Shown piece by piece: positions 57,965-63,381 of a stretch of DNA of 64,000 bases. Origin of the DNA: Methanobacteriota archaeon (GTDB taxonomy: Archaea; Halobacteriota; Methanomicrobia; Methanomicrobiales; Methanospirillaceae). The DNA lies in assembly GCA_029547605.1 (NCBI GenBank), contig JAKPPB010000033.1, positions 1 to 64,000 of the forward strand. Reading direction: 5' to 3'. Each line of letters opens with the position of its first letter. Position 1 is the stretch's first letter. A model generated the notes under the pieces. The model made no database searches and was not told the DNA's origin. It was given only the letters and a program-made list of their open reading frames with translations. Made by a program: the position numbers and the translations under genes.

Positions 57965-58190
57965 GCAGGTGTACAATGGCGGGATAACGGTTCAATCCTT
58001 TGGTATAGTGTGGGGGGGGAGATCCTGCAGGACAGGAATGTCCGTTTAAGAAAAAACGGAAAATATCATGCGAATTTCGAAAAAAGCATGATAAACCCGG
58101 ATATCTTCTCCTGGATAAACGTGCCGGGACCACTTTCACCCCGCGTGCTCTCCCACCCTTAAGGATGGGTGAGGTGCCAGTCTCACAGGC

Positions 58191-58721
58191 ATGGAGTTCG
58201 ATCTGCACCCCACGGTCACGCTCCGGAGCGGGACCTTCTCGGCCGTCGTGGCGCCCGGGGATGTGGTGCTGGAGGGGTTAAACGACAGCCCGGTGCTCAG
58301 GCGGTTCCTGTTCCTCTTCGTGAGCGGTAACTACTCACGGCTCCTCTCGGGGATCAACCGCAGGTCGGTCAGTATCGAAGTGAGGCGGGCGTTCACCGCC
58401 TTCCAGCTCATGCAGATCATCCGCGAGTCCTACCACACCATCGTCTTCGTCGAGCACGATTCCTCTCTCTACGAAGGTGTGGGGGAGGAGATGGCCCCTC
58501 AGGTGGGAGAGGCCCTCCGGCAGCTCGGGCAGGGGGCGCTCGTCGTCCTGTACACCGAGTGTGCGGATCCCTCGTTCGATGCGATGGCAAGGTTTGCGGA
58601 CCGGGTCTTCTACCTGGCAAGTCCCGCGGCACGGCCGCCGGCACCCAGGGCAAGGGGTCGGGGGAGGGAGCGTTACCCGGGGGGGCTTCCCCGCGGCCAG
58701 CAGACCCTCGGGGGGCTGTGA
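58191..58721 (+). CDS. RecA/RadA-fold protein lacking the Walker A loop (putative PolB2 partner)
   Basis: 176 residues. Hydrophobic strands with acidic ends (YHTIVFVEHD, residues 81-90; QGALVVLYTE, 114-123; ADRVFYLAS, 136-144) follow the order of a RecA-like core from Walker B onward. No G-x-x-G-K-T loop is seen, so it probably does not hydrolyse ATP. The C-terminus is Arg/Gly/Pro-rich. It sits 1 nt before the next small gene and upstream of a divergent polymerase, resembling the imuA-like position in translesion operons. Function inferred from context. Confidence 0.5.
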   Translation: MEFDLHPTVTLRSGTFSAVVAPGDVVLEGLNDSPVLRRFLFLFVSGNYSRLLSGINRRSVSIEVRRAFTAFQLMQIIRESYHTIVFVEHDSSLYEGVGEEMAPQVGEALRQLGQGALVVLYTECADPSFDAMARFADRVFYLASPAARPPAPRARGRGRERYPGGLPRGQQTLGGL

Positions 58722-58722
58722 G

Positions 58723-58965
58723 ATGGGGAGGAGTTTTGCCAGCGTGCGAATGGGAGTCAGGGAGATCCTCTCCCGCTGGGAGCGGGCCGCCCGCGCCCTT
58801 CCCGGCAAGGAACGGGAGCATGCCCTCCGGGTGATCGCGATGGCACGGGTGCACGCGAGCGAGTGCTTTTACGCATTCGACGACCCGCTCGAGGCCGTGC
58901 TCTTCTCGGTCCTCCTGGAGGTCGCAAAGGAGCGCGAGGAGGGGAGGGGGCGTGTGGATCCTTGA
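58723..58965 (+). CDS. Small helical protein of the PolB2-like cluster
   Basis: 80 residues, predicted all helical: VRMGVREILSRWERAARAL, REHALRVIAMARVHASECF and LEAVLFSVLLEVAKERE. I do not recognise it as a named family. Its stop is 13 nt inside the polymerase gene, so both are translationally coupled. Small helical proteins accompany archaeal PolB2 in some lineages, to my memory. Confidence 0.55.
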   Translation: MGRSFASVRMGVREILSRWERAARALPGKEREHALRVIAMARVHASECFYAFDDPLEAVLFSVLLEVAKEREEGRGRVDP

Positions 58966-60937
58966 CACCTGCTCCCGGAACGGGCAGGTGGAGATATGGG
59001 AGCGGGGCCGCGGCGGCCGGCACCTGGTCGTCCCTGCTCCCCCCTCATTCCTCCTTCACCTGCCGGACCCGCATGCCCACGGGGATCTCCTTGAGGGCCT
59101 TGAGTGTCGCTTCCCCGTGGAGGAGTGCAGCATCCGGACCGTGTACGGAACTCTCGACGGCTACCGGGTAGAGGCCGGCAGGGAGGTCGCAGCACTCGTC
59201 GAGAAACAGACGCGGTACGAGGCCCGGATCTTCAATGCCGATCTCCGGCCTGACCAGTGCGTCCTTGCATCGTGCGGCATTGTCCCCTGCAGCGACGAAG
59301 GGGAGTCGCGGTTCTCCACCGATCTCTCCTTTGATCTCCCTGCAATGGAGATCGCGGTCGAGGACAACCCCTTCGCCGCAGGCACTTTCACCTCGCTCTC
59401 GCTCTCTGTCGACGGGAGGCAGGTGCGGCTCGGGGGGGACGAGATGGCCATCCTCTCTGACATGGAAGGCCTCATCTGCTCCGCTGACCCGGACGTGATC
59501 CTCTTCCCCCAGGCCGACATCTGGGTGCCCCGGCTGGCAGCAAGAGCCCGCGCTCACGGGCTCGATACCGGTATCTCCCGGACGGGGAGGTTCCGGCGTC
59601 TCCAGGCAAAGTCATACTGGAGCTACGGGAAGACGGAGTTCCGGGTGGGGGCCCTGATCCCCGACGGCAGGCTGCTGGTGGACACCCGCCAGAGCTTCCA
59701 CTACAGGGAGAGCGGGCTCTCCGGAATCCTTCTCGGGGCACGTATCTCGGGGCTCTCCCCGAACCTCGCCGCCCGGTTCACCTCCGGGACCCTCATCTCG
59801 TCCTACGAGGTCTACGAGGCGCTCCGCAGGGGGATCGCGGTCCCCTGGCGGAAGGATGACCCTGAGGTGGTGCGGCGGTTCCCGGAACTGAAGGCGGCGG
59901 ACAGGGGAGGGATGATGTTCCAGCCGGTTCCCGGCCTGTATACATCGGTGCACGAGATTGACTTTACCTCCCTCTACCCGTCACTCATCGTCAGGGACAA
60001 CCTCTCTCCCGAGACCCTCGCAGACCCCGGGAAAGAAGGCTTCCTCCCCCAAGTCCTGGCCCCCCTCATCGCCATGCGGATGGAGACCAAGCAGAAGAAG
60101 GCGCTCGATCCCCGGTATGCGGGTCTTGATGCGATCCTCAAGTGGATGCTCGTGACATGCTTCGGGTACACCGGGTACCGCAACGCGAAGTTCGGGAGGA
60201 TCGAGGTGCATGAGGCAATCACCGCCAGTGCCCGCGAAGTCCTGATCCAGACAAGGGACATCGCCGAGGAGATGGGCTTTTCCGTCCTGCACGGGATCGT
60301 GGACTGCCTCTGGGTGCAGGGCGGCCCGGTTGCCGCGTTCAGGGAACGGGTGGAGCGGGAGACCCGCCTGCATACGGTGGTGGACGCCTACGACTGGCTT
60401 GTCTTCCTCCCGATGGCCGACGGGACCGGGGCCTACACCCGCTACTATGGCAGGCTCTCGGACGGGAGTCTCAAGGTGCGGGGGATCGCGGCGCGCCGTG
60501 GAGACACTCCTCCCTTCATCAGGGACGTGCAGGAGGAGATGCTGGCGTGTATGCAGCAGGCCCGTACACCGGAAGAGATCGCGGCACTCCGTGAGCCGCT
60601 CCGGCAACGCTACCGCAGGGCAGTCGAGGAGCTCCCTTCTGCCCGGCCGGGAGAGATGGCGGTCAGCAGGAGGATCAGCACCCTCCGCCACCGGCACGCG
60701 TGCCCCGAGGCATCGGCGGTGAAGGCCTGCGCGGCGGAGGGGGTCGTCCTCTCCCCTGGGATGGAGGTGAGCTACGTTGTCACCGACTCACGCACCTGGG
60801 CTGTAGACCTTGACTGGAAGGCCGCCCGTTTCGATGTGGGCTACTACCGCACGCTGCTCGGGAAGGCCTGGGAAGAAGTAATTTTTGCTGCAGAGGAGGC
60901 AGCGATGCAGGAAGAGCGCAGGCAGCAGGTGACCTGA
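58952..60937 (+). CDS. Divergent family B DNA polymerase (PolB2-like), predicted exonuclease-negative
   Basis: 661 residues from a GTG start with AGGAGGGG upstream. Polymerase motif A is intact ([10 protein letters not shown], catalytic Asp337), and motif B has Lys397 ([16 protein letters not shown]). In motif C the family's G-D-T-D becomes G-I-V-D, keeping the second, metal-binding Asp451. Exonuclease motifs are absent: FDLPAMEI (Asp128) replaces the usual D-I-E and ILFPQADIW replaces the NxxxFD. An error-prone or lesion-bypass polymerase without proofreading is expected. It ends the three-gene cluster. Confidence 0.75.
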
Positions 60938-61125: not shown

Positions 61126-62049
61126 TCACTGGCCCCACCGGTAGACCGCTATTAGTTTCCCGTCAGGGTCCCTGAGCGTGACGGCATCGGCATCGTTTCC
61201 GAGCAGCGGGGCGGAGAGGTTCCAGTAGAGCGTGGTGCCGGTTGGGGTGCCTGAACCGATGTGGAGGGTCACGCGGTCGCCAGGGTGTATGAACACGTTG
61301 CCGAACCTGTAGATTGTCCCACTGTTATCGGCGATCGTCCATCCCGAGAGGTTCAGCGGTTCATCGGAGGCAAGTACGATATACTCGCCGTTAGGGTTCT
61401 CCCTGTCGTCGCCGGGGGCATCGTACTGGACAAAAACGATCGATACGGGGCTTTTTTGCGAACTTTCATGGGTCTTTGCCGCACTCCAGAGCCCGGCCCC
61501 CGCACTCTGTGCCTCGGACTGGAGCAGGAGGTACTGCTGCTTCTTCCCAAACGATTCTTCTGTATAGACCCTTGCGTACCCTCCCTCGAGTAGGAGCGAC
61601 CCTAAGTCAGATCCGTCGACTCCGACATATGCAAGGAGCCTGCCGTACCGGTCCCGCTCACCGGTCATGCAATCTGTCATGAGCGTTACGCCCTTCCCCT
61701 TCACCAGGTTCTCTGTCTGGTCACTGGCCAGGTATCCCCACGAAGTCAGGTATACAGGGCTGCTGATCCCCTCGTATTCATTGCCCCAGTTCCCGTGCTC
61801 TTCGGTCTCAGGAGTGTCGATACCGAGTATGCGCACGGTCTCCTCCCTTCCTCCGGCTGTCTTCACTGCGATGGTGTCCCCGTCGATGACCCTTGTGACA
61901 CGCGCATCGACCGGTATCCCACACGTATATGCCGGGTTTCCCGACGGATCCAGCGTGACTTTCACTGGCATAATACATCCTGCGATGGCGAGCAGACAGG
62001 CGAGTGCGATGGCGAGGGGTATGAAGCGAAAGAGGGAACTCCCTGACAT
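61126..62049 (-). CDS. Secreted lipoprotein thermonuclease (SNase) with C-terminal lamin-tail domain
   Basis: 307 residues. Lipobox AIAGC follows a hydrophobic stretch. The SNase core has ARVTRVIDGDTIAV (metal Asp), VRILGIDTPETEE and DRYGRLLAYV, which are catalytic elements of staphylococcal-type nucleases. The last 110 residues form a lamin-tail (LTD) beta sandwich (YIVLASDEPLNLSGWTIADNSG, FIHPGDRVTLHI). It would degrade extracellular DNA or RNA. Starts at ATG 62049 or 62055; no clear Shine-Dalgarno. Confidence 0.85.
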   Translation of the reverse strand: MSGSSLFRFIPLAIALACLLAIAGCIMPVKVTLDPSGNPAYTCGIPVDARVTRVIDGDTIAVKTAGGREETVRILGIDTPETEEHGNWGNEYEGISSPVYLTSWGYLASDQTENLVKGKGVTLMTDCMTGERDRYGRLLAYVGVDGSDLGSLLLEGGYARVYTEESFGKKQQYLLLQSEAQSAGAGLWSAAKTHESSQKSPVSIVFVQYDAPGDDRENPNGEYIVLASDEPLNLSGWTIADNSGTIYRFGNVFIHPGDRVTLHIGSGTPTGTTLYWNLSAPLLGNDADAVTLRDPDGKLIAVYRWGQ

Positions 62050-62166
62050 AGCCATTCTGGTCGTCGTGCACCCGGATAAGTGTTGGCAGGCCGCCCGGGT
62101 CCGAATGGGCCATGAGGATGGAGGGGAGAGCCGGGTTTTATGTGATAAGGCGACCTTGGTGGAATC

Positions 62167-63381
62167 ATGGACCAGGAAGAGGACCGCGATGCGATCTACC
62201 GCGAGGCGCTGGCGCTCCATGAAAAACACCATGGCAAACTGGAGATACGATCAAAGGTGCCGCTTGAGAGCCGCCATGACCTGTCACGTGCCTACACCCC
62301 CGGGGTGGCCGAGGTCTGCCGTGCGATCCATAAGGACAGGAACCTTGCGTATCGCTACACCCTCAAGCGGAACACGATAGCGATCGTCACTGACGGGACT
62401 GCCGTGCTCGGCCTCGGAAACATCGGCGGGTATGCGGCCATCCCGGTGATGGAAGGAAAGGCCATCCTCTTCAAGAAATTCGCGGGTATCGATGCCTTCC
62501 CCATCTGTTTCGACGGTCCCCAGTCTGACTTCGTGGAGCAGGTCAGAAACATCGCCCCGGTCTTTGGCGGGATCAACCTCGAGGATATCGCCGCCCCCCG
62601 CTGCTTCGAGGTGGAGGAGGGCCTCCAGGACCTCGGCATCCCGGTGATGCACGACGACCAGCACGGCACCGCGATCACTGTCCTCGCGGCCCTCCTCAAC
62701 GCCTGCCGGGCCACGAAGAAGCAGTTCGAGGACCTCCATATCGTGGTCTGCGGGGCCGGTGCCGCAGGGTACGCCATCACGAGGCTCCTCCGCTGCATCG
62801 GGTACAGCCCGGACGTCTGCCGCAGCGTTCGGGAGATCGTGGTCTGTGATACTCAGGGGATCATCCACCGCGCCCGAAAAGGCCTCTACCGCAACAAGTA
62901 CAAGTTCATCCTTGCCGAAGAGACCAACCGCACCGGGCGGACGGGATCGCTCTCTGATGCGATGGAGGGAGCAGACGTCTTCATAGGCGTCTCCGGACCC
63001 GGCGTACTCAACGAAGAGATGATCCGGAGGATGAATGACCACCCAATTGTCTTTGCGATGGCCAACCCCGTCCCCGAGATCATGCCTGACGCCGCCCGGC
63101 GTGGCGGTGCCGCGGTGGTAGGGACGGGGCGAAGCGACTTCCCGAACCAGATCAACAATGCGCTGGCCTTCCCAGGGGTATTCCGGGGTGCGCTCGATGC
63201 CTTTGCCACGTGCATTGGTGACGAGATGAAAGTGGCGGCGGCACACGCGATTGCAGACTGCGTCCCGCATCCCAACCGGGAGCACATCCTTCCCACAATC
63301 CTCGATCGCGACGTGACGCGGGCGATTGCGGGTGCGGTCAGGGAGGCCGCGATACAGTCGGGATATGCAAGGGACCTGTGA
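62167..63381 (+). CDS. NAD(P)-dependent malic enzyme
   Basis: 404 residues. Decarboxylates malate to pyruvate. Segments: LSRAYTPGVAEVCRAI, DGTAVLGLGNIGGYAA with a Rossmann-type Gly loop, EDIAAPRCFEVE, the metal-site VMHDDQHGTAITVLAALLNA and VCGAGAAGYAITRLL. Length matches the short archaeal/bacterial form. Cofactor preference is unknown. It is divergent from the nuclease gene. Confidence 0.93.
   Translation: MDQEEDRDAIYREALALHEKHHGKLEIRSKVPLESRHDLSRAYTPGVAEVCRAIHKDRNLAYRYTLKRNTIAIVTDGTAVLGLGNIGGYAAIPVMEGKAILFKKFAGIDAFPICFDGPQSDFVEQVRNIAPVFGGINLEDIAAPRCFEVEEGLQDLGIPVMHDDQHGTAITVLAALLNACRATKKQFEDLHIVVCGAGAAGYAITRLLRCIGYSPDVCRSVREIVVCDTQGIIHRARKGLYRNKYKFILAEETNRTGRTGSLSDAMEGADVFIGVSGPGVLNEEMIRRMNDHPIVFAMANPVPEIMPDAARRGGAAVVGTGRSDFPNQINNALAFPGVFRGALDAFATCIGDEMKVAAAHAIADCVPHPNREHILPTILDRDVTRAIAGAVREAAIQSGYARDL

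Follow-up and report, generated by a model that had tools for sequence, protein, structure and literature searches.

An operon encoding the family B DNA polymerase PolB2, an inactivated RadA (iRadA) and a small protein of arCOG07300 was reported in 2014 to be scattered through the Euryarchaeota (Makarova 2014; PMC4104785), and the three proteins were modelled in 2025 as a PolB2–iRadA–PPB2 heteropentamer (Timinskas 2025; PMC11791011). The Sulfolobales counterpart of the polymerase, Dpo2, is a damage-inducible extender polymerase (PMC8764526, PMC7390963) for which mismatch extension has been demonstrated in Sulfolobus (PMC8764526), where damage co-induces dpo2 and herA-mre11-rad50-nurA (PMC10470591). 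The UV response of Sulfolobus involves a promoter hexamer, A(N)TTTC, located at −44 to −39 and bound by Orc1-2, which reads ACTTTC in upsE (PMC5817253, PMC9738581). In the haloarchaea, promoters that UV-B induces in Halobacterium NRC-1 were found to contain TTTCACTTTCA, a motif also noted upstream of radA in other haloarchaea and in Methanospirillum hungatei (Boubriak 2008; PMC2556686). This was the only relevant paper on the 11-mer found within a limited literature search, and the paper on the Sulfolobus hexamer makes no mention of haloarchaea (PMC5817253).

We analysed a window of 64,000 nucleotides, positions 1 to 64,000 of contig JAKPPB010000033.1, which we assign by the nearest named records to Methanolinea (family Methanoregulaceae, order Methanomicrobiales); those nearest to its PolB2 are Methanolinea proteins, 91–92% identical. 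The gene cluster at 58191–60937 is very likely an iRadA–PPB2–PolB2 mutasome operon. It is a new instance of a known system and not a new system, given the operon report of 2014, the known Dpo2 extender and the heteropentamer model of 2025, and it adds one well-conserved PolB2 mutasome to a family in which nearly all members carry one. Of greater importance than the operon itself is the promoter element in front of it.

The iRadA–PPB2–PolB2 operon and its conservation

The operon consists of three ORFs on the forward strand, abutting or overlapping: iRadA (58191–58721, 176 aa), PPB2 of the arCOG07300 type (58723–58965, 80 aa) and the catalytic subunit PolB2 (58952–60937, 661 aa, with a GTG start). 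The 1-nt gap followed by a 14-nt overlap, already described in the first-pass annotation, agrees with the ORF coordinates; both recur across the genus, and the 14-nt overlap is found in most of the family. Rfam RNAs were not detected between 57500 and 61200. A convergent gene at 61126–62232 (reverse strand) encodes a staphylococcal-nuclease domain together with a lamin-tail domain.

PolB2 was identified by the NCBIfam equivalog NF004416 (880 bits against a cut-off of 516) and also matches Pfam DNA_pol_B. A Pfam domain search found no exonuclease domain in the 661-aa protein, which compares with about 825 aa for the PolB3 of the same genome, and the exonuclease appears to have been inactivated or lost; the earlier claim that all exonuclease motifs are gone holds at the level of the domain, at which it was assessed. 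The residues D337 (motif A), K397 (motif B) and D451 (motif C), which the annotation had listed as retained, are invariant in 26 homologues. It had also noted the loss of the first aspartate of motif C, and indeed this motif reads I449-V-D451 in the window, the first position being hydrophobic in every PolB2 examined, whereas the PolB3 proteins of the same genomes have DTD; in S. islandicus PolB2 the motif is I-I-D (PMC11791011). D317-R318 corresponds to the D(K/R) motif, through which, in published models, the polymerase touches the PPB2 arm (PMC11791011). In a tree of 24 PolB2 and 12 PolB3-type sequences, the PolB2 clade is fully apart from PolB3 with 100/100 support for the split.

The AlphaFold model of iRadA (mean pLDDT 85) matches the folds of FlaH, RecA, KaiC and RadA in Foldseek, with E-values from 1e-4 and a probability of 1.0, and no Walker A motif is present in the 176-aa sequence, which bears out the description of this protein as RecA-like and P-loop-less. 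It is predicted to comprise the RecA/RadA core fold with neither the N-terminal domain nor an ATPase site. Homology to RadA at the sequence level was considered and rejected: iRadA had zero matches to RecA families in Pfam or to PDB chains, and the hhalign probability against RadA, profile against profile, was 0.2%. The link to RadA is one of predicted fold only, and a fold that many RecA-type ATPases match too. While this differs from the published mutasome, one group of inactive RadA proteins (arCOG07763) is so deteriorated that HHpred alone recognised it (PMC4104785), and sequence similarity to RadA is not a defining feature for all iRadA. Past a variable linker modelled at low confidence, the C-terminus ends in the clamp-binding-like peptide GQQTLGGL, of which the family keeps Q..TL (Q170 invariant, L173 at least 90%) in variants such as QQTLGGL (window), QTTLEGF and QKTLEV. 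The conserved form, QxTLExx, differs from that of the published mutasome in having no FF/WF end; the C-terminus of the genome's own PolB3 reads RTTLAQWGIG. Clamp motifs are commoner in iRadA than in PolB2 (PMC11791011).

PPB2, which had been read as an 80-residue helical protein, is modelled as three helices (pLDDT 86), with zero significant matches among PDB folds; the best, non-significant match was a sigma factor, echoing PMC11791011. Its N-terminal arm, MGRSFASVR, shows no variation at G2, R3, S7 and R9 across 21 homologues and by its sequence corresponds, with MGRS, R3 and R9, to the published PPB2 arm (MGRT with R3 and R9; PMC11791011).

Of the 108 genomes of the family, 94 have a PolB2 scoring above the curated cut-off. 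Relaxing the threshold to E ≤ 0.001 raises this to 104 but takes in weak cross-hits of PolB3, which makes 94 the more reliable figure; PolB2 is nearly universal in the Methanoregulaceae. The gene order iRadA–PPB2–PolB2, adjacent and on the same strand, is kept in most loci examined, although PPB2 was missing from a few genera in a simple search. Since the arrangement is kept across genera of the family, a chance association of the three genes can, on this comparison of gene orders, be excluded. The first-pass reading of the cluster as a PolB2 mutasome-like module was essentially right, for a system that had previously been described: the 176-residue protein has the RecA fold, the polymerase groups away from replicative PolB3 and relatives keep the three genes side by side. 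Its expectation that such a module in a methanogen would be notable is weakened by the euryarchaeal operon known since 2014, and given the near-universal presence of PolB2 and the conserved gene order in the family, the methanogen copy is not notable in itself.

A promoter element upstream of iRadA and other repair genes

The sequence CACTTTCAC(CCCGC), which contains ACTTTC, is located at 58131–58144 on the forward strand and was recognised by its conservation in family iRadA promoters. It is followed by a putative TATA-like box, CCCTTAAG (58156–58163, forward strand), at a distance of 27 nt from the first base of ACTTTC and some 30 nt upstream of the ATG. An alignment of 16 iRadA promoters, unselected for the motif, has ACTTTC-C-C invariant, and the consensus YACTTTCRC occurs 53–60 nt before the start in 54 of the 57 family iRadA loci with enough upstream sequence; of the other three, one has a single-base mismatch and two are arranged differently. 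The TATA-like box likewise keeps its position in the family, at 24–29 nt from the first base of ACTTTC; in relatives it reads CCTTATG or CTTTAT. The window holds one non-coding copy of YACTTTCRC; the other copy, at 59383, lies inside polB2. A survey of the window and 40 family loci, 847 ORFs in total, found the consensus at −110 to −30 of 19 iRadA ORFs and of one further ORF, an overlapping frame that shares the site, but before none of about 830 unrelated ORFs. It also precedes the PolB2 operon in Methanothrix, Methanocrinis and other Methanomicrobiales families and is absent from the haloarchaeal PolB2 operons sampled (L257–L260). An inverted repeat upstream of the operon at 58064–58093, TATCATGC-N14-GCATGATA, was also considered as an operator, and rejected for its lack of conservation within the genus.

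The element is found before radA in all 42 Methanomicrobiales genomes checked: 31 in the family (30 genomes tested plus the window's own; six of the 30 needed a corrected start or a look further upstream) and, in five further families of the order, all 11 that were tested, one of these without PolB2. It is further present before radA in four of four Methanotrichaceae and in most haloarchaeal radA promoters, there often as TTTCACTTTCAC, and was not found at radA of the sampled members of three further families (f9, f14 and f8). At mre11, which heads mre11-rad50-nurA-herA, A(N)TTTCRC occurs in 12 of 20 family loci and in the window's own genome, with several others off by one base. In that genome both targets carry YACTTTCRC with a TATA element (radA at G000:C60:58884, reverse strand, locus L090; mre11-rad50-nurA-herA at G000:C51:2786, forward strand, loci L088 and L417). 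Judging from these promoters, co-regulation of the operon with radA is well supported.

Pattern-based scans of ten genomes, hence with incomplete coverage of each, recurrently returned iRadA, radA, a PF13482 exonuclease and two small families of unknown function; a PPB2 paralogue was matched once, as was an OB-fold RPA-like protein. The exonuclease (YprB-like, DEDD, about 360 aa) follows the element in four genomes (L170, L171, L184, L236) and is a candidate repair nuclease of the regulon. The lone PPB2 paralogue of the window's own genome (about 80 aa, without the MGR arm; G000:C7:2245, forward strand, L077 at 1501–1850) starts 56–68 nt past CACTTTCAC, with a less clear TATA box; a similar lone copy was seen in G032 (L193). 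The element together with a TATA box precedes rlmH and three small genes of unknown function in the same genome. For rlmH, not an obvious repair gene, the distance is 82 nt (L110, G000:C7:91062), and the motif has the same context in another Methanolinea (L234). One of the small families, of about 150 aa and with no Pfam match (AGYLxRxGxxVLDxxGxPxEILEL...NWMxYLGG), has the element upstream in seven genomes (L115:1014–1469, reverse strand; L182, L173, L178, L190, L242, L251). Another, of about 135 aa (FEHIGAAR...RIDIKTMQAVI; L111 and L112 in the window's own genome, L230, L233, L237), likewise follows the element and is possibly located in mobile regions, judged by its surroundings. Because rlmH and mobile-element genes also carry it, the element may not be specific to repair; its raw genome counts are only modestly above those of a reversed-pattern control.

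Function of the operon and alternative explanations

The best explanation, to which we give a probability of about 0.82, is that the operon encodes a lesion-bypass extender polymerase that is co-induced with recombination repair. PolB2, as a proofreading-deficient family B enzyme, would carry synthesis past lesions by extending primer ends that are distorted or mismatched. iRadA, unable to bind ATP, would hold PolB2 by mimicking the RadA–RadA interface, and its C-terminal QxTLxxx peptide would anchor the complex on PCNA; PPB2 is envisaged as a trimer whose MGR(S/T) arm reaches in close to the active site. Polymerase activity, complex formation and clamp binding are here extrapolated from homologues, by analogy with which a role as lesion-bypass extender is likely. 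Transcription would start from the promoter with YACTTTCRC upstream of a weak TATA box, and the element shared with radA and mre11-rad50-nurA-herA suggests that the mutasome and recombination-repair genes are switched on together upon DNA damage. We infer damage induction of the operon from the promoter motif, and consider it plausible.

Other explanations were weighed against this. A second replicative PolB, namely a PolB3 paralogue chancing to sit beside two small genes, shares with the window's polymerase the membership in family B; it is refuted by the tree and the residues, with a separate, fully supported clade and IVD against DTD in motif C, and a PolB3-type enzyme of the genome's own is encoded on a different contig, so that we give this virtually no credence. 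The loss of the exonuclease and of the first aspartate in motif C, along with a P-loop-less RadA partner, would also agree with the proposal of 2014 that the PolB2 complex is catalytically inactive and instead plays a structural or regulatory role at origins or at forks that have stalled (PMC4104785). We regard this as very unlikely, considering that Dpo2 of S. islandicus and of S. solfataricus shows robust polymerase activity with the same substitution in motif C (PMC8764526), and that D337, K397 and D451 are invariant in the homologues.

A less improbable but still unlikely alternative concerns the promoter: in these methanogens the element could be a feature of strong promoters in general, or one associated with BRE/TATA, and not a damage signal. 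Its closeness to the core promoter, its occurrence before rlmH and genes of unknown function and the modest excess over the reversed-pattern control are what such a feature would produce; the lack of the element among some 830 unrelated ORFs of the family loci is not, nor is the recurrence of radA, mre11-rad50-nurA-herA, the PolB2 operon, PPB2 paralogues, the DEDD exonuclease and the OB-fold RPA-like protein as targets. A near-identical motif moreover marks UV-B-induced genes in Halobacterium (PMC2556686).

Relation to known damage responses

The operon resembles that of S. islandicus Dpo2 in its gene order, IxD in motif C, dead exonuclease and D(K/R) motif, and the two mutasomes share the MGR(S/T) arm, the P-loop-less RecA fold and, putatively, a clamp-type peptide at the iRadA C-terminus. 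A further difference is the YACTTTCRC promoter element, documented here for methanogens. The first-pass annotation had drawn a comparison with ImuA–ImuB–DnaE2, which stands only as a functional analogy: like UmuD'2C–RecA (Pol V), this system joins a RecA-like protein to an error-tolerant polymerase. However, the polymerases of both are of the C or Y family and work without PPB2 and through different interaction surfaces, whereas that of the window belongs to family B; Pol V and Pol zeta are the closer published parallels (PMC11791011).

By sequence, YACTTTCRC matches the UV-associated radA motif of haloarchaea and Methanospirillum. Compared with TTTCACTTTCA, the element outside the haloarchaea mostly lacks the upstream half TTTC, and in methanogens it also precedes the PolB2 operon and mre11-rad50-nurA-herA. 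The element extends the radA motif of 2008 to a defined set of methanogen repair operons, and it is to our knowledge the first evidence tying PolB2 outside the Sulfolobales to a damage-type regulon. The Sulfolobales element is alike in that ACTTTC, exactly the upsE box, lies upstream of BRE/TATA and that the targets overlap (PolB2 operon, herA-mre11-rad50-nurA). It differs in its distance to TATA, 24–29 nt here against about 16 nt in Sulfolobus (estimated from PMC5817253), placing the methanogen element some 8–10 bp, or about one helical turn, further away, and in that radA is a main target in methanogens. It is conceivable, though on balance doubtful, that these are parts of an ancient SOS-like regulon common to archaea, with ACTTTC upstream of TATA perhaps read by related Orc1/Cdc6-type regulators, which would comprise the PolB2 mutasome, RadA and Mre11–Rad50–NurA–HerA in the Methanomicrobiales, radA in haloarchaea and the Orc1-2 regulon of the Sulfolobales; six bases are too few to prove a common origin. 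The 9-bp element is a concrete target in the search for the euryarchaeal damage regulator. The obvious candidates, the two Orc1/Cdc6 genes of the window's own genome, both lack the element upstream, and an autoregulated Orc1/Cdc6 was rejected on these grounds. An Orc1/Cdc6 gene beside the cluster was also rejected, the two AAA candidates in the window being an SRP54-like GTPase and an ABC transporter ATPase.

Some loci deviate from the common pattern. Fragmented or interrupted PolB2 genes were seen in seven genomes of the family (G003, G034, G036, G043, G047, G067 and G089), some beside an intact copy, which suggests gene decay or duplication. Two loci (L304 and L342), in records labelled as Micrarchaeota and Thermoplasmata, contain PolB2 operons 51–55% identical to that of the window, and the promoters of L304 are near-identical to those of Methanothrix and Methanocrinis; these labels likely reflect binning errors or recent transfer. 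Genome G083 (L176, L196 and L247) encodes several extra iRadA-like ORFs, at least two of them directly downstream of the element.
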